64,000 nucleotides of DNA. Origin: an uncultured Cohaesibacter sp. (lineage in GTDB: Bacteria; Pseudomonadota; Alphaproteobacteria; Rhizobiales; Cohaesibacteraceae). Below, piece after piece: positions 225-19,465 of the stretch. The notes beneath the pieces were generated by a model, which was not told where the DNA came from, searched no databases, and saw only the letters and a list, made by a program, of their open reading frames with translations. A program made the position numbers and the translations under genes. The stretch is from positions 3,981,501 through 4,045,500 of the forward strand of contig NZ_OY821667.1 in assembly GCF_963682185.1 (NCBI RefSeq), in the 5' to 3' direction. Every line of letters starts with the position of its first letter. The first letter of the stretch is position 1.

Positions 225-2351
225 CTAATTGATCATCGTCAAAGCGCCTTTGACGAGCAGCATTCCGGAAGATTTCACCTGCGTCATGCCTCCGCCTTCG
301 AGCTTCAACATGCCGCCGCCCTTGAGGGAGGCCTGGCCTTTGCCTTCCATCTTCAACTGGGCTCCGGCGGTGAATTTGGCAGTGGCCTTTGCCTTGAATT
401 CGATCTGGGTGGTAGAAATGGTGACCTTCGTCGGGGTCATCTCGATGGTCGAGCCACCGCATTTGAGCGTGATTCTGGATTTGGCCGTGATCTTCAGAGC
501 ATCTCCCACGTCGATATCGTAATTGTCTGAAATCTCGTCGGATTTGGCGCCAAGAACGTGGACGGATTGATTCTTGTCGACACGCAAATGATCTTCCCCG
601 CCGATGCCGGTCTTGCGCGTCTGGGCAACCGAAATATCTTCCTTGCCCTTGGCCACAGTGAAGCTGTGATCTCCTTCGCGGATGGTCTCGGTTTTTGTGC
701 CATGGATCGTCTGGGTGAAGGTGCCGCCCTTCTTATGTTCGAGCCCGACGGTTACCTCGGCATTGTTCTTGATGATCTGCTTATAGTCGCGCTCGGACTG
801 GAAACGGACAAACTCTGCGTTTTTCTTGTCTTCAAACACCAGCTCATTAAAGCCGCCACCGCCCTTGGAGGAGTTCGTCTTCAATCCGCTTTGTGTCTGA
901 TTGGCTGGTAGTTTGTAGGGCAGCTTGGTGTCGCCATTATAAACCATGCCGGTTACGATCGGGCGATCCGGATCGCCATCCTCGAACTGAACAACCACTT
1001 CCTGTCCCATGCGTGGCACGCCCACCATGCCCCAGCCCTTGCCGCTCCATGGAACTGTGGTGCGAATCCAGCATGAGGATTTGTCGTCCCTCTTACCCTC
1101 GCGATCCCAATGGAACTGAACCTTGATCCGGCCATATTCATCGGTCCAGATTTCTTCGCCCTTTTTGCCCACGACAACTGCGGTTTGAATGCCCGGATGA
1201 GGCGGGCGAGGCGTGATCTGTGGCGCGCGGAAGGCGACGCTGATAGGCTGAACTTCAAAGGAACATCTGTAGATATCGATGGTGTTCGTATGATCGAAGG
1301 TGAGGGTCGGGCCCAGAATTGCGTCGATAATTTCCCTGTCATCGATATCTGCATCAATCTGTAGCTGGTGGCTGGCGGAAAGAACGAGATATTCCGCATT
1401 TTCAGCCTTGCGAGGATGCTTTTTGAGCTTGAATTTCCCTCCTGCCATCATCTGCTGCACATTACACACGCCCATGGCCCGTTGGGCCTGAGCCGCGATG
1501 CCTTCAATCTTGACACGGGCGTGATGTTCGCCAAGACGAAGTTCTCTGTGGCGACCTGGATATTGATAGACTTCGTAAGACTTATATGGGTGCTTGCCGC
1601 GTGGCAGAGCTTTTACCGTTCGAAGGTCTGATTTCGGTTTCTCGAAATCATAGTCTTGCAGCGTAACCTTGCCGGACTGGATGCTCTCGCTCCCGCGCCA
1701 CTCAAAGATATGATCATCGGCGCGACGATAGTGTGGTTCACGAAAATAGAACTCGATCTCTGCATTGTCCTCAACTGCTTTATGCGTGCTTGCATCGTCA
1801 GCCAGAACAAGGGTCTCTTTCGACTTTTCGTGCGTGATGTAATAATAGATGCCTTCCTCTTCCATCAGGCGAGAGACGAAGGCAAAGTCCGTTTCCTGAT
1901 ATTGAACGCAATAGTCGCGCGGTTTGTAACTCTGCTTGGTTGAATCCTTGAGATCAGAGAAACCGTGCTGATTGAAGATCTCCTTGATGACATCGATGAC
2001 CGACTTGTCCTGAAAGACACGGCAGTCTGTCGTGCGTGTCAGGAACCATAGCCACGGGCGCACCTCAGCTCGAAAATACCCTCGGCCAGCGTGGGAGCCA
2101 AGATATTCCGCGGCGACACAGTGGCCTTGAAAATAGCGGATCTTGTTTTTCGGGGCATCGACTTCAAGGCGCATCCGCTCTCCAACAACCTTTTGCAGGT
2201 CCAGATCGATATCTGGAGACATGAACTCGATTGTCGTCTCGGTTATCCGGCTCAGTCCTTCGTCGATCTGGGCGCGCATCAAAAACCCCTTCAGGTTATT
2301 GGGCAATTCAAGGCGGACCTGACGGCCTTCCAAAATAGATTGACTTGCCAT
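225..2351 (-). CDS. vgrG: T6SS spike protein VgrG (TssI)
   Basis: Trimeric needle-tip protein that sits on the Hcp tube and punctures target membranes. The 708-residue product has the usual order: gp27-like hub (about 1-370), gp5-like OB domain (the GRIKVQFHWDREGK and CWIRTT...W.G.GWG segments), then a Lys/Gly-rich repeat tail typical of the beta-helical needle. No extra C-terminal enzymatic domain follows, so effectors are probably carried non-covalently. The frame can extend five codons to a GTG at 2366. I prefer the ATG at 2351 because GAAAGGT sits 6-8 nt before it. It lies between a 104-residue unknown gene and the DUF6931-like gene, in line with the T6SS operon. Confidence 0.95.
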   Translation of the reverse strand: MASQSILEGRQVRLELPNNLKGFLMRAQIDEGLSRITETTIEFMSPDIDLDLQKVVGERMRLEVDAPKNKIRYFQGHCVAAEYLGSHAGRGYFRAEVRPWLWFLTRTTDCRVFQDKSVIDVIKEIFNQHGFSDLKDSTKQSYKPRDYCVQYQETDFAFVSRLMEEEGIYYYITHEKSKETLVLADDASTHKAVEDNAEIEFYFREPHYRRADDHIFEWRGSESIQSGKVTLQDYDFEKPKSDLRTVKALPRGKHPYKSYEVYQYPGRHRELRLGEHHARVKIEGIAAQAQRAMGVCNVQQMMAGGKFKLKKHPRKAENAEYLVLSASHQLQIDADIDDREIIDAILGPTLTFDHTNTIDIYRCSFEVQPISVAFRAPQITPRPPHPGIQTAVVVGKKGEEIWTDEYGRIKVQFHWDREGKRDDKSSCWIRTTVPWSGKGWGMVGVPRMGQEVVVQFEDGDPDRPIVTGMVYNGDTKLPYKLPANQTQSGLKTNSSKGGGGFNELVFEDKKNAEFVRFQSERDYKQIIKNNAEVTVGLEHKKGGTFTQTIHGTKTETIREGDHSFTVAKGKEDISVAQTRKTGIGGEDHLRVDKNQSVHVLGAKSDEISDNYDIDVGDALKITAKSRITLKCGGSTIEMTPTKVTISTTQIEFKAKATAKFTAGAQLKMEGKGQASLKGGGMLKLEGGGMTQVKSSGMLLVKGALTMIN

Positions 2352-2381
2352 TATTTTACCTTTCACCGTTTGAAAGAAGGG

Positions 2382-2696
2382 TCATGCGCTTTGCGAATAG
2401 TCGACAAGGACGAGTTGGCCCTCGCGCTTCAGGCGATCGATAATACCGGTGTGAATGGCCCACAGATCGGCAATGTCTATGCCGCCAGAGGGCAGGGAGG
2501 CCATCTCGAACTTACTTGCAAACCGGACACAATAAACAGGCGTTGGGTAAGGCTCTTCCGCTGATAACAATGCAGCGAGATGCTGGTCACCCTCGATAAG
2601 CCAATAGCCCTCATCAAGCTGCGCTATAAGGATGGAGGCGGCTCCATTTTCGCTGACGGTCTGGTCCGGGGTGGTGTTATCTCCATCACGCATCAT
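2382..2696 (-). CDS. Small hypothetical protein in the T6SS operon
   Basis: A 104-residue soluble protein whose ATG overlaps the stop of the preceding sheath-fusion gene (ATGA at 2693-2696), so translation of the two is probably coupled. The frame ends 30 nt before the vgrG start. The sequence is acidic at the N terminus and has no signal peptide or membrane segment. I do not recognise a family. A short central stretch (IAQLDEGYWLIEGDQHLAAL) is followed by ADLWAIHTGIIDRL, and the protein may be a small alpha/beta fold. Its placement between a sheath protein and VgrG suggests a chaperone or adaptor, but that is inference from position alone. Confidence 0.75.
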   Translation of the reverse strand: MMRDGDNTTPDQTVSENGAASILIAQLDEGYWLIEGDQHLAALLSAEEPYPTPVYCVRFASKFEMASLPSGGIDIADLWAIHTGIIDRLKREGQLVLVDYSQSA

Positions 2697-5620
2697 AGCC
2701 CCTCCAGAAGTGCTGCCAGCTCGGCATCGAGATCTTCTTCGTCGTCGTCCGAAGACGTCGTGTCATCTGTTTCATCATCGAACTCAGCCAACAGGCTATC
2801 CAGATCCATATCATCGTCGCTGTCCGGGTCATCGTCGGTAAGCGCGTCGCTATCGTCAGCGGTCAGATCGAGATCCAGCCCGAGATCATCGTCTCCAGTG
2901 CCTGAGGTCTCTGGCGCCAAATCTTCATTTTCAGTTATGGTGTCTTCATCGGATTTCGATAGCGCGGCCGAAAAACTGAGGGTTGTATCACCTGTTGCAT
3001 TGGCAGGCGTCGTGATGGAAGCCCAGGGGCCTGCGAGCATCGAGCCATTCAATGCCTGAAAGGAGCCTTGTCGCACTTCGTTGCGGCCCTTGATGGACAG
3101 CAGCGGGATGAAGCCGCGTGTCACGACGTCGGCCATTGTACGCGTGTTCAGAAGGCGTTCCGTGCAGGGCAAGGCGATCTGGTCGCCATACTGATCATTC
3201 ATGGTATGGACTGGCATGTCATCCAGAGACATGATCTTGCCAAGTTCAAATGACTTGCCCATGCTGCTCACGGTCTTTGCCATCAGGATTGCTGATAGAA
3301 TGACGGGATTGGCCCAGAGCATGCCTTTCAAGCCACTGCGAAGGGTGAATTCTTCAAAATCGAAAGGGTCTACCGGTTCGGTTTTGCGTCCATACGGCAA
3401 CCGCAATAAAAAGCGCGGCGAGGCAAGGCCGACATAGGTCGCTTCCGGTAGCGCGCGCATGGCGTCCCATGATTTGGCTGTTGCCGGATGACGATCCTCT
3501 TTAGATATTTCAAGAAACTTCGGTGAGATGGCCGAAACAAACGGGGCTTTCATCCATGCGGAAATCTTTGCCATACGGGCAAGAAGCTCCGCGTGGGGTG
3601 GGGTTTCCTCAAAGCTGTAAAGCCCGAAAATGGCAGACAGGTGGCCCTGTGCCTCATCAAGGCGCGGCTCTTCGGCCAGCATCCGGAAGAGACCACATTC
3701 AGACAACTCATCCTGAGCGGACAGATCCGCAGCCCATTCTTCGGCTGAGACATCATAGAGAACAATCTCGAGCGAAGCGTCGGTTTCGACCCGTCTGGCA
3801 AGCAAGTCAAGCGAACGCCAGGTTGACTCGACGGCCTGAAAATCCGGATGATGCAAAATGGCTCTCATGACACCTGACAAGGCGTTGTCGATGGCCGCAA
3901 GATAGCTTTGTTGATCAGGGTCTGCGGCCGCCTTCACATAAGGAGAAACCACTCGATTGATAAGGTCTTCTGCTGGTGTTGCTGTGACTGTAATGCCTTC
4001 TTCATCACCGATCAGACGCTGGAAATCGCCGAGTTTCCTGTTGGCCGGCACGGAACTGCCCTTGGCTCTGGTCCGTGGCAAATGTTCGATATTGATTGGT
4101 TCGACAGAGAGGTCCCTCAGTTTGGAAAGGGACGAAGCGGTGCCAGCGGCGACGCTTTGGCGAAGGGAAGACAGCTCTTCGAAAATTGACACATTTTCAT
4201 AGAGTTCATCGGGGTGAAGGTCATCAAGACTGTTTAACTTGACTTCGATGCCTGCACCATCCTTGCCCAAAGGCAAAAGCAGCGTGGTCGCAAATCTGGC
4301 TATGATGGTGTCTAGATTGTCGACATCAAGTTTGATCGGTTTGCGATTAGCGAGATCATCGCCCGTTGCCAAATCCCCACGGTTGGCGCGCCCAGTAAAA
4401 TCACCCAAAAGCGCTATGCGGAATTTGGGTCGCGAAGCATTAATATCTTGGGGTTGGTCAAGGGAAAGAATGCCAAAGGGCTCTGTGATCGTTGGTTCGT
4501 CTTCGCTCTCTTCCTCTTCATCATCACGATCTAGCAGGAGCGTTTCCAGCTCGTCAGGCTGATCATCCTCCTCTGCGTCTTGCTCTTCAATCAGCCCATC
4601 GAGATTCAACTCACTGTCCTGAGAGATGGCCTCATCCAAGTCGAATGAGGCGCTTTCTGTCGTTGTATCACCATCTGCTTCCAGATCAGAAAAGCCTGCC
4701 TCTGTATCGTCGGCGTCAGGTGCGTCTTCGTCAGCAAGCAATAAATCAAGATCCAGATCTCCATCGGAAGTCAGGCCAAGATCTTGCTGTTCTCCGCTCT
4801 CGCCTTCGTCGCGCCCTGCCAGAAGACTGCTGAAGGCGATATCCTTTTCGTCGTCATCTACTTCTGGCTCGGTCTGATGTGAGCGCAACGCATCGAATAC
4901 AGCCTCGGTCGGGTCTTCTTCTTCCATGGATGGGGCGGCTGATGAGGATAGCAGGCTTTCAAACGCGGCGAGCCTCTCGTCTGGCTTTTCCTGAAGGTCG
5001 GGTCTAGGGATATCGCGCAGGCTATCGAGGGCGTCCCCTGTTGTATCTTCTTCTGCCGCCATTTCCGTGTTGGTTGCTACTTGCCTCAAACTTTCAATGG
5101 CTTCTGCATGGTTTTGAGGCGTGGCGGAAGTGTCTCCCGCTGACGCGAGAATAGCGGTGAGCGCCTGAGGATCGGCTATCAGCTTGGCAATAAGATCTTC
5201 TGCTCCCGTCTTGCCGTCCATATAAGTGGCGAGATGAGAAAGCCGGGTTCTTGCTTCAAGCAGCTTGTTCAGGGGAGCGACCTTTTTTGCAATTGCGGAT
5301 GGAGAAAAATCCTCCATGCTTTCGAACGAAAGATCGATGTTCAGATTGCCGTCACCAGTCAGGGTGTTTGGCACCGAGAAGGCCGCTCTCGGGCGAAGTG
5401 CTTTCATGCGCTCATCGAAATTATCGAAATCAATTTCCAGAAATTTGCGATCAGCAACGCCTGGGAGGGAAGCTTCGGATTTTCCGGAAAGATCTGACAT
5501 GACCCCCATGACAAACGGAAGCTGGACTTTCTTTTCGGCTCCATAGAGCTCTACGTCATATTCGATCTGTACCCGAGGCGCCCTGTTGCGCGCGACGAAC
5601 TTCTGTCCGCTTTTTGACAT
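2693..5620 (-). CDS. T6SS sheath-like fusion: TssB-like + acidic linker + second small domain + TssC-like + acidic tail
   Basis: A 975-residue protein. Residues 1-162 closely match the TssB encoded at 16406-16924, sharing RNRAPRVQIEYDVELYGAEK and DLSGKSE. Residues 163-378 are a long Asp/Glu-rich linker. Residues 398-505 begin with RIALLGDFTGRANRG, a second small-subunit-like fold. Residues 551-870 match TssC (AILHHPDFQAVESTWRSLD; PRFLLRLPYG..TEPVDPF.FEE). Residues 890-975 are again extremely acidic. The start has an AGGGACGG ribosome site. A canonical tssB-tssC pair exists 11 kb upstream, so this is an additional sheath-type protein. Rhizobial and Agrobacterium clusters carry a second TssC-like protein (ImpC/ImpD; TssC40/TssC41), and this may be a fused form of that arrangement. 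Its role could be sheath capping, baseplate binding or regulation of assembly; none is shown by the sequence. Confidence 0.85.
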   Translation of the reverse strand: MSKSGQKFVARNRAPRVQIEYDVELYGAEKKVQLPFVMGVMSDLSGKSEASLPGVADRKFLEIDFDNFDERMKALRPRAAFSVPNTLTGDGNLNIDLSFESMEDFSPSAIAKKVAPLNKLLEARTRLSHLATYMDGKTGAEDLIAKLIADPQALTAILASAGDTSATPQNHAEAIESLRQVATNTEMAAEEDTTGDALDSLRDIPRPDLQEKPDERLAAFESLLSSSAAPSMEEEDPTEAVFDALRSHQTEPEVDDDEKDIAFSSLLAGRDEGESGEQQDLGLTSDGDLDLDLLLADEDAPDADDTEAGFSDLEADGDTTTESASFDLDEAISQDSELNLDGLIEEQDAEEDDQPDELETLLLDRDDEEEESEDEPTITEPFGILSLDQPQDINASRPKFRIALLGDFTGRANRGDLATGDDLANRKPIKLDVDNLDTIIARFATTLLLPLGKDGAGIEVKLNSLDDLHPDELYENVSIFEELSSLRQSVAAGTASSLSKLRDLSVEPINIEHLPRTRAKGSSVPANRKLGDFQRLIGDEEGITVTATPAEDLINRVVSPYVKAAADPDQQSYLAAIDNALSGVMRAILHHPDFQAVESTWRSLDLLARRVETDASLEIVLYDVSAEEWAADLSAQDELSECGLFRMLAEEPRLDEAQGHLSAIFGLYSFEETPPHAELLARMAKISAWMKAPFVSAISPKFLEISKEDRHPATAKSWDAMRALPEATYVGLASPRFLLRLPYGRKTEPVDPFDFEEFTLRSGLKGMLWANPVILSAILMAKTVSSMGKSFELGKIMSLDDMPVHTMNDQYGDQIALPCTERLLNTRTMADVVTRGFIPLLSIKGRNEVRQGSFQALNGSMLAGPWASITTPANATGDTTLSFSAALSKSDEDTITENEDLAPETSGTGDDDLGLDLDLTADDSDALTDDDPDSDDDMDLDSLLAEFDDETDDTTSSDDDEEDLDAELAALLEGL

Positions 5621-5870: not shown

Positions 5871-7115
5871 TTAAGCCTTGGCGGTCTTTTCGAGCTCTTT
5901 TTGAGCAACCTCAAACTGCTTTTTGGCTTCCATGGAAAGATTTATAACCTGATTGATGCTCCCTACTTCTGAGGATATGGCAACCTTGGTGAGCGAAATT
6001 GTGCCATCCACCAACTTGATCCATCTCGAGCCGTTTTTAGAAAGATCTTTAACGGCGGGCCCCAATTCACTATCCAGCTTTTTCTCTGCGGTTTCGATCC
6101 GCGTATAGTCTGCTGGAATTGTTCGCAAGAGTTTATCAACGGTCTTCGCAGAGGCATCCAGAACCTTGTTCAATTGCTTTACTTTATTTTCCAGCTTTTT
6201 GAACTCTTTGCTCTCTGCTTTTACCGACTTCAATTTCTTCTCGTAGCCTTCAACCTTTTTGGAAATTTTTGATTGCTTGTCGAGAATATCATTGAGCTTA
6301 ATTCCTGATTCTGACGTTCTCGCCTTCAGATTTGAGAGCTTTTCTTCAAAACTATTAAAATTGCCTTCGATGGACGAGATCGTTCTGGGATCTTTGTCCA
6401 AGATATGTTTGATGAATACCTTCTTTAGTTCTTCTTTGTTTATCTTTTCCCTTGAGAGTTTTTGATATTCGGACTGTAAGGCTTTGATATCCTTCTCAAG
6501 TTTGTCCTGGTCCACTTCAATCTTCGAATATATTTTTGATACTGTCTCAGATAGCTTTACGACATCTGTGTAAGCGCCGTGAAGAGCATGCAGAAGGGCG
6601 GGAATACCCGCGCCGTGGCTGGCAACAGTAGCCGCGACAGATCCAACGACTTCAAAACCGCGGGCCACCACTTTCATCGTAGAGGAGGTAATTGCTACAA
6701 CCGCCTTGAAACGAAAAGCTTTGGCTTCTTTCTGGGCTTTTGCTCTTTTTGTCAGAATGTCATTGGCTACACGCTGCAGAGCAGCCTCGGCATTTTTGGC
6801 CGTTGATTTGACTTCTGCGTCCCATTTGCTCTGGGCCTTGGGAAGCGAAATGACTTTTTGGCTTACGCCCTGATCTAGGGTTTTCAGAAGATAGCCGAGT
6901 TCCGAGGCCACTTTGAGAAAAATCGGCTTCGTCTTGTCTCGGATTTTCTGTAGATTAACAGCATCCTTTTTGAAAGTGTCGGCGTCGTTCTTGTTCGCAA
7001 AGTCAAGGGAATAGGTAATGGCGATATTTTTCGAAACTTCTATATATTTTGGCGGATAGATCTTGGTTATCGCGCCGTGGAGCTTCTGGCTTTGTAACTC
7101 AATAGGGGTGCCCAT
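5871..7115 (-). CDS. Unknown 414-residue helical protein in the T6SS cluster (possible cargo)
   Basis: I do not recognise a family. The protein is Lys/Glu/Ser-rich and almost all helix. Residues about 130-185 hold a weakly hydrophobic, Ala/Val/Gly-rich stretch (VVAITSSTMKVVARGFEVVG, then ATVASHGAGIPALLHALHG). Residues about 190-335 look like long coiled coils, and a C-terminal helix follows. There is no signal peptide and no Cys. It sits between clpV and the sheath-fusion gene with unusually wide gaps (182 and 250 nt), whereas its neighbours overlap or nearly touch. Its DNA is visibly more AT-rich than the flanking tss genes, which suggests later acquisition. A pore-forming or membrane-active T6SS effector would fit the hydrophobic hairpin plus coiled coils. 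A structural accessory protein is the alternative. Confidence 0.8.
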   Translation of the reverse strand: MGTPIELQSQKLHGAITKIYPPKYIEVSKNIAITYSLDFANKNDADTFKKDAVNLQKIRDKTKPIFLKVASELGYLLKTLDQGVSQKVISLPKAQSKWDAEVKSTAKNAEAALQRVANDILTKRAKAQKEAKAFRFKAVVAITSSTMKVVARGFEVVGSVAATVASHGAGIPALLHALHGAYTDVVKLSETVSKIYSKIEVDQDKLEKDIKALQSEYQKLSREKINKEELKKVFIKHILDKDPRTISSIEGNFNSFEEKLSNLKARTSESGIKLNDILDKQSKISKKVEGYEKKLKSVKAESKEFKKLENKVKQLNKVLDASAKTVDKLLRTIPADYTRIETAEKKLDSELGPAVKDLSKNGSRWIKLVDGTISLTKVAISSEVGSINQVINLSMEAKKQFEVAQKELEKTAKA

Positions 7116-7297: not shown

Positions 7298-10000
7298 TTA
7301 TGAGAAAGCGTAGGAAAATTCACCCTTGGCAACGTCAACATTCACTTGTGTAACGCTTTCCCCATCCACCATTCTTTTGAGGAATTCGGTGGAAATTGCA
7401 GGAAGCATCGTGTTGGTGATGATGGCATCAATCATGCGGCCTCCGCTTTCCAGCTCCTGACAGCGCGAAACAATCGTCTCGATCACAGCGTCGGAATAAG
7501 TGAACGGTACCCCATAGGTGTCCTGCACCCGCTTGCGAATGCGTTCCAGTTGAAGGTCGGTGATCTTGCCAATCATCTCGGGGCTAAGCGGGTAATAGGG
7601 AATGGTGACCATGCGTCCCAGAAGGGCTGGTGGGAATACCTTGAGAAGAGGGTCGCGCAGGGCTTTGCTCATGCCATCAGGGTCTGGCATCAACTCAGGA
7701 TCGGCGCATAGATCCATGATCACTTCGGAACCGACATTGGACGTGAGCAAGATGAGCGTGTTTCTGAAATCGATCATCCGGCCTTCACCATCTTCCATGA
7801 AGCCTTTATCGAAGACCTGAAAAAAGATTTCGTGGACGTCCGGATGGGCCTTTTCGACCTCGTCCAGCAAAACGACAGAGTAAGGCTTGCGACGCACGGC
7901 TTCTGTTAGCACGCCACCTTCGCCATAACCGACATAGCCCGGAGGCGCGCCCTTGAGGCTGGAAACTGTATGGGCTTCCTGAAATTCTGACATGTTGATG
8001 GTGATGACATTCTGCTCGCCACCATAAAGCACGTCGGCCAACGCCAATGCCGTCTCTGTTTTGCCGACGCCGGAGGTTCCCGCCAGCATGAAAACACCGA
8101 TCGGTTTGGAGGGATTGTCAAGACCGGCTCTGGAGGCTTTGACACGGGATGTAATCATCTCCATGGCATGGTCCTGACCGATCACCCGTTTGGATAGATG
8201 TGTTGCAAGATCAAGAACCGTGCGGATTTCATCCTTCACCATCCGCCCGACCGGTATTCCGGTCCAATCGGCAACCACAGACCCGACAGCCTGTGCATCA
8301 ACGATAGGCAGGATGAGGGGAGCCTCTCCCTGCAATTCTGAGAGCACAGTTTGTTTTTCCAGCAGCAATGCGCGTGTTTCTTCACGCGTTGCAGCATCGT
8401 CTGCAGAGGGCTCCGTCTCGTCTTGTGCATCGTCGATAGTGTCGACAGGCAGGCCGGATGTCCTTAATTTAGCCCGCAACGCGAGGATTTCTTCAACGAG
8501 CGCTTTTTCAGCGTCCCAACGCTCTGTCAGGGTTTCAAGACGTTTGGTTGCAGCCTCCAGATCTTTGGTTGCGCGTTCACGCCTTTCCGCCACATGTAGA
8601 CCGGCAGCCTCATCACGGCTAATGATGTCCAACTCGGTCTGGAGGGCCTCGATATGTCGTTGGCAAGTATCAACGGGTGCGGGCACGGCATGAAGACTGA
8701 TGGCTACACGGGCGCAGGCGGTATCCAGTACGCTGACGGATTTGTCAGGTAGCTGCCTTGCCGGGATATAGCGAGCGGACAATTTGACGGCTGCTTCCAG
8801 GGCTTCGTCCAGAATTTGCACCTGGTGATGTTTCTCCAGCATCGCTGCCGTGCAACGCATCATGAGAATGGCGCGCGTCTCATCCGGCTCATCGACTTGC
8901 ACCACTTGGAAGCGGCGGGTTAAAGCAGGGTCTTTCTCGATATGCTTCTTATATTCCGCCCATGTGGTTGCGCCTATCGTTCGCAAGGTGCCGCGCGCCA
9001 GAGCAGGCTTGAGCAAATTGGCTGCATCGCCCGTTCCTGCCGCGCCTCCCGCGCCAACAAGCGTATGTGTTTCATCAACGAACATGATGATCGGTTTGGG
9101 GCTGGCCTGAACCTCTTCAATCACGCTTTTGAGGCGATTTTCAAACTCCCCCTTCATGGATGCGCCTGCCTGAAGAAGCCCGACATCAAGCGAGAGCACG
9201 CGTGCATCACGAAGAGAGGCGGGCACATCACCGCGCGCAATGCGCAGGGCAAATCCCTCGACAACCGCCGTTTTGCCGACGCCCGCTTCGCCGGTCAGAA
9301 TTGGGTTATTTTGCCTACGTCGCATCAGCACATCAATGATCTGACGGATTTCTTCATCCCGCCCTACGATTGGATCGATTTCGCCTTGCTGCGCCTTTTC
9401 TGTCAGATCGCTGCAAAACTGAGAGAGAGCATTGCCGCCACCCAATTGGGCCGGGAGTGCATCCGAAGACACACCCGGTTGCGCTCCATGGTCACCGCTT
9501 TTGTCGGTTGCCGACATTCTGGCCTCGGGTGACTGAGCAAGGATGTCCTCGTGATGGTTTGAGAAGTCATCGACATCAACCTTGCTGAATTGCGGTGAAA
9601 TCGCTTCCATGAGGCGCCTGAGATTGGGAGTCTTCAGGATGCCGAATAGTAAATGCCCCGTACGCACTTGCGGTGCCCCGAACATCAGGGATGTATAGAC
9701 CCATGCCCGCTCTACTGCGTCCTCAAGATGAGGGGATAGGTCGGAAATGGATGTGGCCCCGCGCGGCAGACTGTCAAGGGTTCGCACGATATCGGCAGCC
9801 ACCCGTGCTGGCTCCAGCTCATAATGTTTAATCAGGTGGTGCAAGTCGCTGTCTTGCAGCTGCAAGATCTGGTGAATCCAATGGACCAGTTCGACATAGG
9901 GATTGCCTCGCATCTTGCAAAAAACCGTGGCGCTTTCTATGGATTGAAACCCCAACTGGTTTAATTTGCCAAACAGAGCCACGCGACTGATTTCCGACAT
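7298..10000 (-). CDS. clpV: T6SS sheath-recycling AAA+ ATPase ClpV (TssH)
   Basis: Hexameric unfoldase that disassembles contracted TssB/TssC sheaths. The 900-residue product has the ClpV N-terminal domain, a first AAA module with Walker A GEAGVGKT, a middle coiled-coil domain, and a second AAA module with GTSGVGKTE and Walker [12 protein letters not shown]. The first Walker B region reads FVDETHTL, where DEIH is commoner. The frame extends nine codons to 10027 and would then overlap tssG. I prefer the ATG at 10000 because AGGAAAG lies just upstream and [14 protein letters not shown] is the usual ClpV start. It follows tssG, as is normal in these clusters. Confidence 0.96.
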
Positions 10001-12885: not shown

Positions 12886-13380
12886 CTACACCTGTTTGAT
12901 TGTCAAATCGCCGCTGACAACATCGAGAGCTGTCCGCAGATAGAGATCGACAGGCACCGGTTTTGCCCAAAGCTCCCCGCGAATATCGAATGAGATGACC
13001 GCTCTGCTTTCATCCTTGTCCTTCAGAGGCGTAACCTCGAGGGTTTCTCGCAAGATTCGTGGCTCGAAGGTTTCAATTGCCTTGCGGATCGTCTGCTGTA
13101 TGTCGCCTGTGTGATGGCGTGTATTGCCGCGTCCAGAAAGATTTGAAATGCCAAAATTCAGAACCGAATTGGCGACATTGGGGTACAGTTCGAGATTGTG
13201 GGTCGCCTCGATATTCGAGCAATTGAGAAGCCAGAAGAGATCTCGGTGGAGGATCCTTCTTAGCCTGTGAATGTCGATATACTGCTCGGATTCGCTGTCG
13301 CTCTTGCTCCCTGATGCTTCATCGGTCAAACGGTCGAGTAAGGAAGGCTGTAACCGCTCCGCCAGTAGCAGATCAGCCAT
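12886..13380 (-). CDS. tssE: T6SS baseplate protein TssE (gp25-like)
   Basis: gp25-like lysozyme-fold baseplate subunit without enzymatic function in this family. The 164-residue product has the N-terminal LLDRLTD motif, the RRILHRDLFWLLNC block, and the gp25 core (NSVLNFGISNLSG, then IRKAIETFEPRI). Its start overlaps the tagJ stop by 8 nt. The N-terminal helix MADLLLAERLQPSLLDRL resembles the ClpV-recognition helix seen in other sheath proteins, but that is only a resemblance. Confidence 0.94.
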   Translation of the reverse strand: MADLLLAERLQPSLLDRLTDEASGSKSDSESEQYIDIHRLRRILHRDLFWLLNCSNIEATHNLELYPNVANSVLNFGISNLSGRGNTRHHTGDIQQTIRKAIETFEPRILRETLEVTPLKDKDESRAVISFDIRGELWAKPVPVDLYLRTALDVVSGDLTIKQV

Positions 13381-14212
13381 GATCGCCTCCTGATCGTTCG
13401 GAAAGCACTGTTTGGCTGGCCTGAGCGTCTAGCAAAAGCTCACGAACATCCATCAAGGCAAAGTCTGATTGATCGGTGGCAAAGAGACGTTGTCCGAGGC
13501 CGGATGCTGTCAGGTTGCCATTGCCTTCCTGCCATGAAGTCCTTGCCGAGAGCAGAAGCTGATTGTCTTTGGACTGCGTCGTTCCGACGTAACGGGTTGG
13601 AATCAGAGCGACGGCATCCCCTCCGTTTGCCCAAGTAATGGTCGCAGGCATCCAGACTCGATCCCGCAGATCGCTTGGTGCCTCGATATGCACCTGTCTG
13701 AGCACTGCAAAGGGCGCCCAGAAATAACGGCCGTTGACAATGACTTCCAGTATCGGCCCCAATCGAGGATCCGTATCGGCAATCCACCCGAAGGGTTGGC
13801 CGTCCAGTTGCCCCCCAATGGCGGGAGCTGCTTCAAAGGCTCCCGCGCGCAAGTCCTCGGCGGCAGCCATGTCTCCGGATGCTTGATATTTGAGAGCCTC
13901 AATCATGGACGCGATCCAGTCCTCTGGTTCGCCAAAGATCAGTGGTTGTTTTGCCCCTTGGAAAACCTCGTTCCGATAAAGCTCACAAATGATTGCGGTC
14001 CGGTACATCTGCGCCATGGCATTGGCTTGAGGATCGAGGGTGGCACAGGTTTTCAACTGTTGAACAGCACGTTGCCATGCTCCCATGACGCAAAGCAGCT
14101 GGAACAGGAATATGCGTAAACTGGCATCTTGAGGTGCCTTGCGGATGTCATCCTGCAAAGCGCTCAAAGCACCTTCCAGATCGCCTTCCTTGAGCCTTTG
14201 CTCTGCTATCAT
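13373..14212 (-). CDS. tagJ: T6SS accessory protein TagJ (ImpE/SciE)
   Basis: A 279-residue ImpE-family protein. Residues 1-80 form TPR-like helices (EGDLEGALSALQDDIRKAP). The C-terminal half carries the ImpE core: GWIADTDPRLGP, NGRYFWAPFAVL and RDRVWMPATITWANGG. Homologues bind the N terminus of TssB and are thought to help ClpV reach the sheath. It lies between hcp and tssE and shares 8 nt with tssE. A GC-rich hairpin precedes it. Confidence 0.93.
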   Translation of the reverse strand: MIAEQRLKEGDLEGALSALQDDIRKAPQDASLRIFLFQLLCVMGAWQRAVQQLKTCATLDPQANAMAQMYRTAIICELYRNEVFQGAKQPLIFGEPEDWIASMIEALKYQASGDMAAAEDLRAGAFEAAPAIGGQLDGQPFGWIADTDPRLGPILEVIVNGRYFWAPFAVLRQVHIEAPSDLRDRVWMPATITWANGGDAVALIPTRYVGTTQSKDNQLLLSARTSWQEGNGNLTASGLGQRLFATDQSDFALMDVRELLLDAQASQTVLSERSGGDHG

Positions 14213-14899: not shown

Positions 14900-16402
14900 T
14901 TACTGTCCCCTTTGAGACGGCAGCTTTGAAACCAGCCGGAGTGAGACCGACAGGCCTTCCAGCTGATAGTGCGGTCTCAGGAAGAACTTGGAGCTGTAAT
15001 AGCCAGGGTTGCCCTCAACTTCCTCAACCACGACTTCGGCTGCTGCCAGAGGATGTCGCGCTTTTTCGTCTTCGTGAGACGTCTCTGCATTGAAGTCGAC
15101 ATATTTGTTGATCCAATCCTGCAACCATTCCTGCATGTCGTTGCGTTCTCGGAAGGACCCCACCTTGTCGCGCACGATGCATTTCAGATAATGGGCAAAG
15201 CGACAGGTCGCGAAGAGATAGGGCAGGCGCGCCGCAAGATTGGCGTTTGCCGTGGCATCGGGATCGTCATATTCTGCCGGCTTTTGAAGGCTCTGTGCCC
15301 CTATAAAGGCTGCCAGATCGGTGTTCTTGCGATGGATGAGCGGCATCATGCCATTCTTGGCAAGTTCCGCTTCCCGACGATCCGAGATGGCGATCTCGGT
15401 TGGACATTTCATGTCAACACCACCGTCATCGGTCGGGAAGGTGTGCGTTGGCAGCTCATCAACCGTGCCGCCGGACTCTACGCCGCGAATGCGCGTACAC
15501 CAGCCATATTCCTTGAAGGAGCGGGTTACGTTGCGTGCCATGCCATAGGCGGCATTGACCCAGCAATATTTGTCGGAACTGGCCCCTTCAGTGTCTTCCT
15601 CAAACGAAAATTCATCAACCGGGTCTGTCTTCTCGCCATAAGGATGGCGCCCGAGGAAGCGGGGCATAGCAAGGCCCAGATAGCGGCTGTCTTCGCTTTC
15701 TCTCAGAGACCGCCATGCGGCATATTCAGGGGTCTGGAAAATCTTGGTCAGATCGCGCGGGTTCGCCAATTCAGACCAGGAGTCCATCTGGAACAGGGAG
15801 GGCTCGGCCGCTGTCAAGAAGGGAGCGTGCGCAGCCGCGGCAACCTTTGATATCTCGCCAAGAAGTTCGACATCAGGAGGGCTGTGATCAAAATAATAAT
15901 CGCCGACAAGACAGCCGTAAGGCTCCCCGCCAAATTGACCATATTCCTCTTCGTAGAGCTTTTTGAAGATGGGAGACTGATCCCAAGCCGTGCCTTTGAA
16001 TTTGCGCAAGGTCTTGGAGAGGTCCTTTTTAGAGATGTTGAGGACGCGGATCTTCAGCATCTCGTCTGTTTCAGTGTTGTTGACCAGGAAATGCAGGCCG
16101 CGCCAGGCGCTCTCCAGCTTCTGGAAATCCTGATGATGCAAAATGAGGTTGACCTGCTCGGTGAGCTTTTTGTCGATTTCGGCGATGATACCCTCGATAG
16201 AGCGCAAGGCGTCGTCAGAGACCAGTGCCTCATTCTGCAATACCTGCTCGGCAAGAGTGCGCACCGCTTCTTCCACGGCCGTCTTGGCCTGATCAGATTT
16301 GGGACGGAATTCTTTCTGCAAAAGAGAGGCGAATTCTGAAGAGCCGAAGGCGCTTTGCGTATCAACTGAGGCCTCGGCGGTCTGGTTCATTGTTTCACTC
16401 AT
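14900..16402 (-). CDS. tssC: T6SS contractile sheath large subunit TssC
   Basis: Large sheath subunit (VipB/EvpB family). The 500-residue product has the core segments ILHHQDFQKLESAWRGLHFL, FLGRHPYGEKTDPVDEFSFE and a C-terminal GYYSSKFFLRPHYQLEGL that is diagnostic for the family. A GTG at 16405 would add one residue. I take the ATG at 16402, with GAGGAA upstream inside the end of tssB. It sits directly after tssB. The fusion protein at 2693-5620 carries a diverged copy of this domain. Confidence 0.96.
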   Translation of the reverse strand: MSETMNQTAEASVDTQSAFGSSEFASLLQKEFRPKSDQAKTAVEEAVRTLAEQVLQNEALVSDDALRSIEGIIAEIDKKLTEQVNLILHHQDFQKLESAWRGLHFLVNNTETDEMLKIRVLNISKKDLSKTLRKFKGTAWDQSPIFKKLYEEEYGQFGGEPYGCLVGDYYFDHSPPDVELLGEISKVAAAAHAPFLTAAEPSLFQMDSWSELANPRDLTKIFQTPEYAAWRSLRESEDSRYLGLAMPRFLGRHPYGEKTDPVDEFSFEEDTEGASSDKYCWVNAAYGMARNVTRSFKEYGWCTRIRGVESGGTVDELPTHTFPTDDGGVDMKCPTEIAISDRREAELAKNGMMPLIHRKNTDLAAFIGAQSLQKPAEYDDPDATANANLAARLPYLFATCRFAHYLKCIVRDKVGSFRERNDMQEWLQDWINKYVDFNAETSHEDEKARHPLAAAEVVVEEVEGNPGYYSSKFFLRPHYQLEGLSVSLRLVSKLPSQRGQ

Positions 16403-16405
16403 CAC

Positions 16406-16924
16406 TCATTCCTCGCTCTGTGCGCTGTCGCTGCTGGAAGCTGGGGTCGAAGCCAATGCCCGCAAAAGGCTGGGGTCCTGAATAATCTGTGCCATCAGAT
16501 TTTCAGCGCCTGTCTTGCCATCCATGTAGGTGGTCAGGTTGGAAAGCTGGGTTCGCGCATCGAGCAGTTTCTTCAAGGGCTCAACTTTCTGTGCGATTGC
16601 AGCAGGCGAAAAATCGTCCAAGCTCTCGAAGGTGATATCGACTGCAAGATTGCCTTCACCGGTCAGCGTGTTGGGAACTGTGAAGGCGGCTCTGGGCTTC
16701 ATCGACTTCATGCGCTCGTCGAAATTATCGACGTCGATCTCAAGAAATTTGCGATCAGCGACTGCTGGCAGTGGCTCTTCGGATTTGCCCGAAAGATCGG
16801 ACATGACACCCATCACGAAAGGCAATTGAACGGACTTTTCTGCTCCGTAGAGCTCCACGTCATATTCAATCTGTACGCGTGGGGCGCGATTGCGCGCTAT
16901 AAATTTCTGGCTGCTGTCGGCCAT
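16406..16924 (-). CDS. tssB: T6SS contractile sheath small subunit TssB
   Basis: Small sheath subunit (VipA family). The 172-residue product has RNRAPRVQIEYDVELYGAEK, LPFVMGVMSDLSG and FLEIDVDNFDERM, all canonical. It is followed at once by tssC. The N-terminal 160 residues are very similar to the first domain of the sheath-fusion protein at 2693-5620, which points to duplication inside the cluster. Confidence 0.96.
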   Translation of the reverse strand: MADSSQKFIARNRAPRVQIEYDVELYGAEKSVQLPFVMGVMSDLSGKSEEPLPAVADRKFLEIDVDNFDERMKSMKPRAAFTVPNTLTGEGNLAVDITFESLDDFSPAAIAQKVEPLKKLLDARTQLSNLTTYMDGKTGAENLMAQIIQDPSLLRALASTPASSSDSAQSEE

Positions 16925-16994: not shown

Positions 16995-18053
16995 TTATTC
17001 GTCATTTTCTTCAATGCCGCCGATCAGCGAGACATTCTCCACGCCTTGAGGAGCCATGTCTTGCATGATGGTAAAGAAGTCTGCAGAGATGAGACGGCGG
17101 GCACGCGAAAGCAAAAGCGGTACGGGGCTGGATGGCTCGTGGCGGCTGTAATAATCGATGATCCGGTCTATCGCTCGTCTGACATCTTCGGGCGAGTGGA
17201 TTGCTCCTGAAGTCCCAGTTGAAGCCGCAGATGCGGCAGGTGCCGGGGCGTCTGAGGAGATTTCGTGTCCATTCAGATCGCCTTCATCGCCCATTTCTGC
17301 ATTGTTTGGGGAAAGGGCTGTACCGGCATAGGCCTCGATCTGCTTTTTCATCAAGCTGAGGATCTCTTTCAGAGGGTCGAGGTCTGGGCCCAGCGTACCG
17401 ATCTGTTCATCAAATTTCGAAGAGATCGCTGTCACATGCTCAAGGCATGCGGCAAGTGCGGCAACGAGCGCTTCGATATGGGAGGCATCGGTATCCTGAA
17501 AGGCTGCGGAAATGGTCTGCGGTGTCGGTACACTATCCATATCCGACGGAGCGGATATTTCACCTTGCGCTATTTGAAGATCCCTTAGGCTGAAAAGGCC
17601 GAAGGTGCGGCTTTCCGCGAGTGGTACCATGCGTAGGGAGGCCAAGAGGCCTTCTCTATCTGTCAGCCCCATCACAGCATTGACGCGCATGGTTGGGTCG
17701 TTGTCGTCCTCCTCATCGAGTTGCGGATGGACACTGTCCCAATAGTCTCCAAGACTTCTGCGGATATAATCCAGAACCGGTTCAAAGGAGAGAAGGCCGC
17801 CGGTGCGCAATGACGCATTGGCCAGCATCACGGCAACACGTATATCCCTTGTTCTTGTGAGGAGTTCTTTCGCAGCCTTCTCGACCTCGGGAAAATCAGG
17901 GTCTTCTGCAGGAATGAACGCGTCCCCCACGACCCGCTCCTCGCCCGGCTCGTTGGCCAGTGTCAGAGCTATATAGTCTGGGTCATATTCAAGATCCATC
18001 CCGCTCGGAGCATCGTCTCCGAAACTGCGCAGCAATTCATCCAGATCGAGCAT
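16995..18053 (-). CDS. tssA: T6SS cap/assembly protein TssA (ImpA N-terminal family)
   Basis: A 352-residue product with the ImpA N-terminal domain: PSGMDLEYDPDY near residue 16, then RTRDIRVAVMLANASLRTGG and GDYWDSVHPQLDEEDDNDPT. TssA proteins organise baseplate docking and sheath polymerisation. The C-terminal third (after an Ala/Pro-rich linker at about 265-285) has DVRRAIDRIIDYYSRHEPSSP, which matches the short TssA-type tail. It lies 53 nt after the kinase gene and 70 nt before tssB. Confidence 0.92.
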   Translation of the reverse strand: MLDLDELLRSFGDDAPSGMDLEYDPDYIALTLANEPGEERVVGDAFIPAEDPDFPEVEKAAKELLTRTRDIRVAVMLANASLRTGGLLSFEPVLDYIRRSLGDYWDSVHPQLDEEDDNDPTMRVNAVMGLTDREGLLASLRMVPLAESRTFGLFSLRDLQIAQGEISAPSDMDSVPTPQTISAAFQDTDASHIEALVAALAACLEHVTAISSKFDEQIGTLGPDLDPLKEILSLMKKQIEAYAGTALSPNNAEMGDEGDLNGHEISSDAPAPAASAASTGTSGAIHSPEDVRRAIDRIIDYYSRHEPSSPVPLLLSRARRLISADFFTIMQDMAPQGVENVSLIGGIEENDE

Positions 18054-18106: not shown

Positions 18107-19465
18107 TTAGCGCAGCAGCTTTTCTGCGGCATTGACGAAATTCTGTCGTTCAGCATCATCATCGATATGCTCGGAAAGCTGTCTGATCAGTTCTTGCGAA
18201 GAGCCTGCCGTTTGTGCTGATTTTTTAACGACTACGCGCGCGATCGGCCCAAGCTCGGTTGTCATGAGACTTGTCAGTGTCTGCAAATATTCGCTCGAGA
18301 ACGCGTCTGTTGCCGCTGTTTGGTTCTGTGTGTCTGACAATGCCTTGCGCATGATGCGGCGCAGATCGTCACGTTCCTTTTCATCGTCGAACTCCCGCAA
18401 CACCGTCTCGATCATCTCTTCGGTGCTGGTGGCACTCGCCGCTGCCCGGCGGGCAATCACTTTGCCGATTGGTCCGATATTGGATGTGAGATGATGCTCG
18501 ACCTTGCGCATGCTTTGCTCGCTCATGCGTTCGAGCAGGGTCGTCGTTGTTGAGCCTGTCTTGCGTGTCGTAGGGGGAGGGGGCGGCGCTATGTCGATGA
18601 GGCCTGTTCTATCGGCAATTGGCATGACGCGCGAGAGCGCATCACGCATCTGGATCGCGCCTTCAAAGCGTTCCTCGGGATCAACGCTCATGGCCTTGAG
18701 CACGACGGCGTCAAGCTCCGGGCTGATCGAGGGAATATGGGTGCTCGGTGGTGTGATCTGTCCGTTGCGCATTGCTGCGAACAATGCCTCGGCACCGCCG
18801 CCTTTGTAGGGCTTGCGACCTGTCAGCAATTCATACAGCAGAATGCCGCAGGCATAGATATCAGCCCGTGCGTCGACTTCGCTTCCGGTGAGCTGTTCAG
18901 GTGCCATATATGCTGGTGTGCCGACCATGCCTGCTCCGGTGGCCTCCATGGCAGTGAGCCGGGCAATTCCGAAATCGGTCAGTTTGACGACGCCATCATC
19001 AGCCAGCATCACATTGGCTGGCTTAAGGTCGCGATGCACGATACCGGCCGCATGGATGCAGGCAAGTCCGGAGAGAATTTGCGATATGATCGCGTGGATC
19101 TCTTCGAGCGGCAGCGCTTGGGGCGCATCACGTCTATCCTCCAGCGTGATAGAACGAACGCGCTCCATCACGAGATAGGGCACACCATCTTCCTGCAGAT
19201 AGTCGAAAATTGTCACCAGATTGGGGTGCAGAACGCGGCCGCCAGCCCGTGCTTCGCGGGCAAAGCGCTCCAGCCAATCCTGACCACCAGATTCGTTGAT
19301 CAGGTGTTTATGGATCGTTTTGATCGCAACCGGCCGGCCAATGTCAGGATCCTGACCGGCATAGACCATGCCCATCGCGCCCTCACCAAGAATACCCTCG
19401 ATGCGATATTTGCCGATGAACCGACGTGCGCCAGCCCCTGGTGCGATGATAGTGGAATCAGTCAT
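18107..19465 (-). CDS. ppkA: PpkA-like Ser/Thr protein kinase with tandem C-terminal repeats
   Basis: Hanks-type kinase likely to gate T6SS assembly by phosphorylation. Residues 20-280 hold the catalytic domain: glycine loop GEGAMG (28-33), Lys49 in VAIKT, HRDLKPAN with catalytic Asp146, DFG at 164-166 and APE at 188-190. All key residues are present. A Pro/Thr linker (294-310) leads to two similar ~55-residue helical segments (about 322-376 and 397-451), each starting with a 'LGPI..V..+++A' pattern. There is no transmembrane segment, unlike classical PpkA, but its start overlaps by 8 nt the gene for a membrane heme sensor, which may supply the membrane input. No pppA-type phosphatase or FHA gene is visible in the window. 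Confidence 0.9.
   Translation of the reverse strand: MTDSTIIAPGAGARRFIGKYRIEGILGEGAMGMVYAGQDPDIGRPVAIKTIHKHLINESGGQDWLERFAREARAGGRVLHPNLVTIFDYLQEDGVPYLVMERVRSITLEDRRDAPQALPLEEIHAIISQILSGLACIHAAGIVHRDLKPANVMLADDGVVKLTDFGIARLTAMEATGAGMVGTPAYMAPEQLTGSEVDARADIYACGILLYELLTGRKPYKGGGAEALFAAMRNGQITPPSTHIPSISPELDAVVLKAMSVDPEERFEGAIQMRDALSRVMPIADRTGLIDIAPPPPPTTRKTGSTTTTLLERMSEQSMRKVEHHLTSNIGPIGKVIARRAAASATSTEEMIETVLREFDDEKERDDLRRIMRKALSDTQNQTAATDAFSSEYLQTLTSLMTTELGPIARVVVKKSAQTAGSSQELIRQLSEHIDDDAERQNFVNAAEKLLR

Follow-up and report, generated by a model that had tools for sequence, protein, structure and literature searches.

A TssCL-type fusion in a Cohaesibacter type VI secretion cluster and its old, apparently non-polymerising sheath-pair core

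The known sheath of the type VI secretion system (T6SS) consists of one TssB-TssC pair. In roseobacters, a larger relative of these subunits was named TssCL by Suria et al. (2022; PMC9515649), who suggested that it is a recent fusion; the accessible passages of that paper contain no functional test. Another relative is TssC40/ImpD (Atu4340), which is needed for Hcp secretion in Agrobacterium tumefaciens (PMC3702570). The gene described here is a single intact open reading frame (ORF) of 975 residues from an uncultured Cohaesibacter sp., at positions 2693-5620 on the minus strand of a 64,000-nucleotide stretch of contig NZ_OY821667.1 (3,981,501 to 4,045,500; hereafter the window). It encodes a fusion of the known TssCL kind. 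What is new is a TssB'-TssC' core that, judged from sequence, is apparently old, non-polymerising and spread over at least six phyla, and a TssB tether that has apparently been selected to stay a working TssB.

The Cohaesibacter protein follows the published TssCL in its domain order, VipA - VipA - VipB within one ORF, and in the divergence of its parts from the separate subunits of the cluster (PMC9515649). There, the first VipA domain is 86% and the second, short one 26% identical to the cluster's TssB, as against 71% (over 171 residues, E 2e-86) and 27% here, while the VipB domain is about 31% identical to the cluster's TssC there and 32% here (292 aligned positions). Both clusters retain separate tssB and tssC genes, and the complete pair that a sequence-only reading of this DNA had reported is indeed present in the window, with tssC at 14900-16405 (minus strand; PF05943 and PF18945, 733 bits against TIGR03355) and tssB, identified by profile searches, at 16406-16924 (minus strand). 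The published TssCL belongs to a group 3, H1-like T6SS (PMC9515649), and the TssB, TagJ and ClpV of the window are H1-like too. The two differ in length, 975 against 1,684 residues, and in host. The same sequence-only reading had known of no described protein with this layout, a view overtaken by the TssCL report. A literature search found no second paper combining TssCL with 'type VI secretion', and other names gave no title on such a protein.

From its N-terminus, the protein comprises a TssB copy, an acidic linker, a second TssB-like part (TssB'), a TssC-like part (TssC') and an acidic tail, an arrangement recognised at the outset and borne out by the ORF, Pfam and NCBIfam searches and sequence identities. 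The TssB copy (residues 1-161; 5138-5620, minus strand like all parts of the gene) is full length and includes the N-terminal arm, of which residues 6-30 hold the TagJ-binding segment and the handshake strand. The linker (residues 166-378; 4487-5125) has a computed charge of about -65 and carries LDxLL-like motifs; over residues 166-390 its composition is 34% Asp+Glu and 4% Lys+Arg. TssB' (residues ~395-494; 4139-4438) and TssC' (residues ~549-849; 3074-3976) are followed by the tail (residues 871-975; 2696-3010), which has a computed charge of about -40 and, over residues 861-975, 35% Asp+Glu and 1% Lys+Arg. The tail had been put at about 85 residues; this holds for its strongly acidic last portion, whereas the whole extension beyond the folded core measures about 105-115 residues. 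Within it lie a conserved motif, DLDSLLAEF (residues 938-950; 2771-2809), and a conserved C-terminal end, LAALLxxL (residues 962-975; 2696-2737).

A gene-splitting frameshift, named beforehand as one outcome that would undo this picture, finds no support in the data. The same single-ORF layout is intact in three further genomes of the genus (overall identities of 95, 73 and 73%), in 10 loci outside it and in three plasmid records, which rules out a frameshift or an assembly artefact and also answers the earlier proposal to look for the same domain order elsewhere. An apparently split TssCL in locus L057 was set aside, as its upstream ORF ends in unknown bases and the break probably reflects a gap in the assembly; L056 is truncated where its contig starts. 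The nearest named relative of the core, among the matches listed, is Cohaesibacter marisflavi (98%).

The most telling feature of the core is what it lacks. Profile comparison with hhalign aligns TssB' to residues 31-133 of TssB only (98.5%) and TssC' to residues 24-363 of the 501 of TssC (99.9%). Pfam finds PF05591 twice in the ORF, strongly at residues 10-159 and weakly at ~400-491 (profile positions 28-121 of 155), and PF05943 once, at 573-849 (profile positions 3-292 of 301); PF18945, the C-terminal gp25-like domain, was not found by this search. The pattern recurs in relatives: in each of the 20 genomes searched, the VipA-profile match of TssB' starts between profile positions 23 and 29 and stops between 119 and 132 of 155, PF18945 is found in none of 22 full-length core members at E 0.01, and both VipA and VipB are matched by all 55 core stretches. 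TssC' also fails to score as canonical TssC, reaching 152.3 bits against a TIGR03355 cut-off of 271.5. Besides the C-terminal end of TssB, the absent parts, TssB residues 1-30 and TssC residues 364-501, are those of the inter-subunit handshake. In the cryo-EM structure of the Pseudomonas aeruginosa H1 sheath, this handshake forms domain 1, built from the N-terminal strand of TssB and strands 11-13 of TssC; the parts used by domains 2 and 3 are largely kept in TssB'-TssC' (PMC5807055). The core thus resembles domains 2 and 3 with domain 1 missing and, because the handshake parts are missing, should not polymerise: it is predicted to be a pseudo-protomer. The earlier suggestion of a permanently linked sheath protomer therefore stands only in so far as TssB' and TssC' form one linked unit, since that unit is devoid of the TssB arm and of the TssC domain that join protomers, and the part fit for the sheath is the N-terminal TssB copy.

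This core is by no means confined to the fusion. A contig scan with an alignment of five cores returned at least 80 loci, so the spread given here is a lower bound. Fifty-eight were kept as core, and 22 were left out, six of which were checked and are canonical TssC and 16 of which were dropped on match coordinates or identity alone; as L064, L076, L099 and L100 have no intact core ORF, 54 loci with an ORF remain. By record titles and tree labels they fall in at least six phyla, namely Pseudomonadota (alpha, beta and gamma), Thermodesulfobacteriota, Nitrospirota, Acidobacteriota, Verrucomicrobiota and Planctomycetota, with the proviso that many records are metagenome bins, any one of which may be misplaced. 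A tree of VipB domains used 27 of the 55 cores, and all 27 form a single clade (100/100), separate from 27 canonical TssC sequences and from nine ImpD/TssC40 sequences (100/99); canonical TssC itself is not a supported clade there (42/5). On this phylogeny the core represents an old TssC lineage of its own, separate from both canonical TssC and TssC40/ImpD. The C-terminal domain of canonical TssC also occurs in 47 of the 50 core genomes searched, the three without it being metagenome bins.

The N-terminal TssB copy presents the opposite picture, and is the only part of the protein with the full VipA domain, N-terminal arm and TagJ-binding segment of a canonical TssB. PF05591 covers its residues 10-159, it scores well above the NCBIfam cut-off for TssB (TIGR03358), and it aligns without gaps to the HsiB1 chain of the sheath structure over residues 4-133 (E 2.5e-72). 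Of 79 columns that are invariant in 23 canonical TssB, only four are altered in at least four of 15 fused copies; two TssB from other T6SS clusters were omitted from this comparison, and the TssB part of L057 was counted among the fused rows. Residues 6-30 contain 21 of the invariant columns; every copy keeps all of them, save for one column kept in 14 of 15, and there are no insertions or deletions. These conserved residues coincide with the segment bound by TagJ in P. aeruginosa, TssB residues 8-30 (PMC4239648), and with part of an arm whose length is critical for contraction in Vibrio cholerae, where adding 2 residues to the VipA arm abolishes killing (PMC5797969). Between the window and genome G013, dN/dS is 0.042 for the TssB copy, 0.052 for TssC', 0.105 for TssB', 0.196 for the linker and 0.281 for the tail, at dS values near saturation. 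As far as such ratios and conserved columns can tell, the TssB copy is under purifying selection and keeps the parts of a working TssB.

Nor is this copy a recent duplicate, since 11 of the 15 cluster in a single clade (98/97); the remaining four sit with one canonical TssB in a less well supported group (85/81), which makes a second origin likely though not firm. Of the 55 core ORFs (the window's and the 54 others), 12 carry the copy, as do G013, G015 and the three plasmid records, all of them Alphaproteobacteria. Within the genus, the fusion occurs in four of the 18 genomes examined, the window's included. In the plasmid records (L212-L214, from Ruegeria, Qingshengfaniella and Leisingera), the annotated gene, labelled 'contractile sheath large subunit', begins downstream of the TssB copy and so misses it.

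Linker and tail are the least conserved parts by substitution rate, and short motifs recur in both. Linkers of members with a TssB copy range from 70 to 675 residues, and up to about 900 in a plasmid record. In 14 linkers, each of at least 60 residues and more than 15% acidic, the pattern [LIVF][DES]x[LIVM][LM], picked like the other motif patterns after the linkers had been read, occurs 70 times against 7.7 in shuffles; the window's linker has four against 0.4 (0/300 shuffles). Enrichment is clear in eight of the 14 (at most 1/300 shuffles), marginal in L062 and shuffle-like in L044 and L045, and the pattern is absent from L047, L048 and L051. Among 33 tails, a single regular expression finds a DLDxLL-type motif in 29, and 25 have an LAALLxxL-type end. 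Tails are absent from the desulfobacterial, nitrospiral, acidobacterial and gammaproteobacterial members with an ORF.

Starting from this anatomy, conservation and selection and from the missing handshake, it is an even bet that TssCL is a sheath-borne regulator. The TssB copy would pair with ordinary TssC and join the ordinary sheath as a minor variant subunit. The C-terminus of TssB is probably at the outer edge of the sheath, where the flexible acidic linker would exit and carry TssB'-TssC' outside. Equipped with domains 2 and 3, the core would dock only laterally, on the sheath surface, its ends, TagJ or ClpV, and the repeated motifs of linker and tail could together offer a T6SS partner a multivalent docking strip. 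The sheath cycle would thereby be tuned at assembly, contraction or ClpV-driven recycling. Such a regulator gains support from V. cholerae, in which mutant VipA co-assembles with the wild type and dominates, and in which VipA-msfGFP served for sheath imaging (PMC5797969). It is supported as well by the co-occurrence of canonical TssC and by the proximity of clpV, found on the same strand within 3 kb upstream in 26 of the 48 core loci with at least 3.5 kb of upstream sequence, and within 300 bases in 13. As the core is found in other bacteria without the TssB tether, the tether looks like a later addition that fixed the regulator to the sheath.

Several points weigh against a sheath-borne regulator. 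The core is a rare accessory part: in an order-wide scan of 397 genomes, 69 matched the core query at all, mostly through canonical TssC, and five, the window's included, had a near full-length core; a class-wide scan of 385 genomes gave two, again with the window's own. No core T6SS gene was found around 17 of the 58 loci in searches with the window's proteins, some contigs being short and distant genes liable to be missed, and some cores stand alone despite 10 kb of sequence to either side. The P. aeruginosa H1 cluster has no TssCL (PMC9515649), and this class of machine therefore does not need it; no experiment on any TssCL was found in print. The near-saturated dS values temper the argument from selection. 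Retention of the TssB arm would be equally expected if its sole job were to bind TagJ, and that TssCL is made in amounts sufficient for sheath entry is an assumption.

It is possible, if unlikely, that TssCL works outside the sheath as a soluble adaptor or decoy for TagJ and ClpV, whose arm would bind TagJ and whose core would show a TssC-like surface to ClpV, delivering or withholding the recycling ATPase. The TagJ-binding segment (PMC4239648), kept in the 15 fused copies with one change in one, would suit this role, as would the rank of clpV as the commonest upstream neighbour seen (the same 26 of 48 loci within 3 kb); the retention of the whole TssB fold, beyond the arm, would not. The tail, moreover, goes with a class of ClpV. 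Arg6 and Asp87, which close off the VipB-binding groove of P. aeruginosa ClpV1 (PMC4239648), occur in 23 of 23 tail-bearing loci where tail and ClpV could both be read, whereas in six of seven tail-less loci residue 87 is Ala or Ser and residue 10 is Ile (position 6 being unreadable). The exception, L098, combines Arg6/Asp87 with no tail, and the association follows deep clades and may reflect common descent. Among the 23 tail-bearing loci, tagJ is unmatched in three, with a piece at the edge in L057 and the stretch outside the available sequence in L058, while L050 seems to be without it. The sequence-only reading had also proposed ClpV as a ligand of the polyacidic parts. The window's ClpV (7298-10000, minus strand, starting MSEIS...) has Arg6 and Asp87, and because these block the groove, the linker motif, which is slightly LLDEII-like, should not dock there; direct docking of the V. 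cholerae type is accordingly disfavoured.

A further alternative, decidedly unlikely, makes TssCL a sheath end factor that would sit at the distal or baseplate end through motifs like those of the TssA N-terminus and start, cap or stall polymerisation. With a matrix derived from the tails, the N-terminus of the window's TssA (tssA, 16995-18053, minus strand) is the best site outside TssCL among 66 ORFs. In TssA from 19 other genomes, the N-terminus holds the best site in 11, five of them beyond 5% of shuffles. In the remaining eight the best site lies elsewhere, and in two of these, L222 and L230, it too is beyond 5% of shuffles. Eighteen linkers contain the TssA spacing [LM]xx[LFIM]xxxAP 43 times, as against 1.3-2.8 in shuffles; among 35 spacings tried it ranks first (the next reaching 12), and it is found at least once in 12 of the 18 linkers and in 15 of 19 TssA N-termini. 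It was picked post hoc, repeats inside one linker are not independent, and six linkers, including the window's, have no match. The Nt1 domain of TssA is reported to bind the sheath (PMC11106082); the TssA segment in question may be buried in that domain, and the Pseudovibrio TssA N-terminus is without the motif though the tail of its TssCL-like protein has it. The resemblance to TssA is best treated as a lead, not a result. An acidic holder, of calcium as first suggested or of the basic coiled-coil protein encoded upstream, is a long shot. The linker charge of about -65 would complement that of the upstream product, about +24; basic ORFs lie between clpV and the core in several relatives, and an ion-channel gene adjoins the core in Pseudovibrio (PF00520), in nine loci with homologues of it and, by the label ion transporter, in the three plasmids. 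Yet EF-hand-like spacing in the 14 linkers is near chance (37 against 28.2 expected) with no strict EF loop, which leaves calcium binding of that kind unsupported; the window has no channel gene at that place beside TssCL, and the motifs are conserved hydrophobic patterns that go beyond charge. That the fusion has decayed, lacks a function or stems from an assembly error would fit the patchy distribution in the genus (four of 18 genomes) and is hardly credible for a gene that is intact in many genomes and under purifying selection.

A broader history can be sketched with low confidence. The core would be a third, unrecognised sheath-protein lineage, an old 'headless' protomer that lost polymerisation and turned sheath regulator, and that in systems with TagJ and the blocked-groove ClpV gained a multivalent motif strip partly imitating the sheath-docking N-terminal region of TssA. 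In Alphaproteobacteria it would have captured a TssB, perhaps more than once, and so become part of the sheath under its control.

The surroundings of the gene are those of a T6SS cluster. Between a kinase gene at 18107-19465 and vgrG at 225-2366, besides canonical tssB and tssC and tagJ (13373-14212, minus strand), an HsiE1 homologue (E 1e-80), the window contains genes taken to be hcp, tssE, tssF, tssG, clpV and tssA, in line with matching gene order in relatives. The 20 kb of genome before the window encode an FHA protein (PF20232) and, presumably, on the same grounds, tssJ, tssK, tssL, tssM, tagF and pppA. Downstream of TssCL lie a 104-residue ORF (2382-2696, minus strand) without a Pfam match, whose start overlaps the TssCL stop by 4 bases and which has a small counterpart in relatives, and vgrG (225-2366, minus strand), annotated as TssI/VgrG at the same place in three relatives and found within 1 kb downstream of the core in 25 of 58 loci. 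The DUF6931 protein gene of L043 (19091-19714; PF22011) comes right after vgrG, and its homologues trail vgrG in many relatives. Between clpV and TssCL stands the basic coiled-coil-like ORF (5871-7115, minus strand, 414 residues). In some loci that interval holds such an ORF, an ion-channel gene, or both; in sister genomes the basic ORF at this place has no detectable similarity to the window's, pointing to fast turnover in a fixed place. Ion-channel genes adjoin the TssCL-like gene in T6SS clusters of Pseudovibrio, several roseobacters and one planctomycete, usually between it and clpV (L036, 13253-14158, tested for PF00520; homologues in L053, L055, L057-L059, L070, L072, L073 and L075; an ion transporter annotation in L212-L214). 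Orphan cores with no T6SS gene found in their flanks (up to 10 kb, some shorter) are L060, L068, L071, L087, L091, L095, L096 and L107, and their genomes have canonical TssC elsewhere, except that of L096. At the upstream end of the cluster, the protein kinase gene (18107-19465; PF00069) slightly overlaps the gene before it, which encodes a HAMP protein carrying a Tll0287-like domain (PF11845; 18107-20330 together), a possible input for T6SS control.

If the favoured reading of TssCL as a sheath-borne regulator is true, a conserved, apparently non-polymerising relative of the sheath pair, which forms one clade across at least six phyla and is often a neighbour of clpV, would be a regulator of sheath building, firing or recycling that has been overlooked. 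The public label 'contractile sheath large subunit', carried by 15 of the 15 plasmid rows listed, is misleading, as the domain by which sheath subunits are joined is missing from the protein.

Compared with canonical TssB and TssC (VipA/VipB, HsiB1/HsiC1), the TssB copy, TssB' and TssC' are kin in sequence, whereas TssB'-TssC' is one chain without the handshake parts and with a TIGR03355 score of 152 against 271.5 bits. TssC40/ImpD is alike in being a second TssC homologue beside a real sheath subunit (PMC3702570), and the sequence-only reading had drawn this tie to the rhizobial second TssC. Membership is ruled out by the tree, in which TssC40/ImpD is a separate, fully supported clade (9/9, 100/99), and by the C-terminal part, since the nine sampled keep 140-158 residues after the VipB match. 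To our knowledge, no TssB part is known in TssC40/ImpD. The closest match thus remains TssCL, whose published range covers roseobacters only (PMC9515649); the full layout occurs also in Cohaesibacter, Roseibium and a Rhizobium, among the matches listed, and the core in at least six phyla, where its single clade speaks against the published view of a recent fusion. Relative to the accessible passages of that paper, this analysis adds the old separate lineage of the core and its absent handshake parts, the kept arm and purifying selection of the TssB copy, the LDxLL-type motifs, and the association of the tail with blocked-groove ClpV in 23 of 23 loci in which both were readable.

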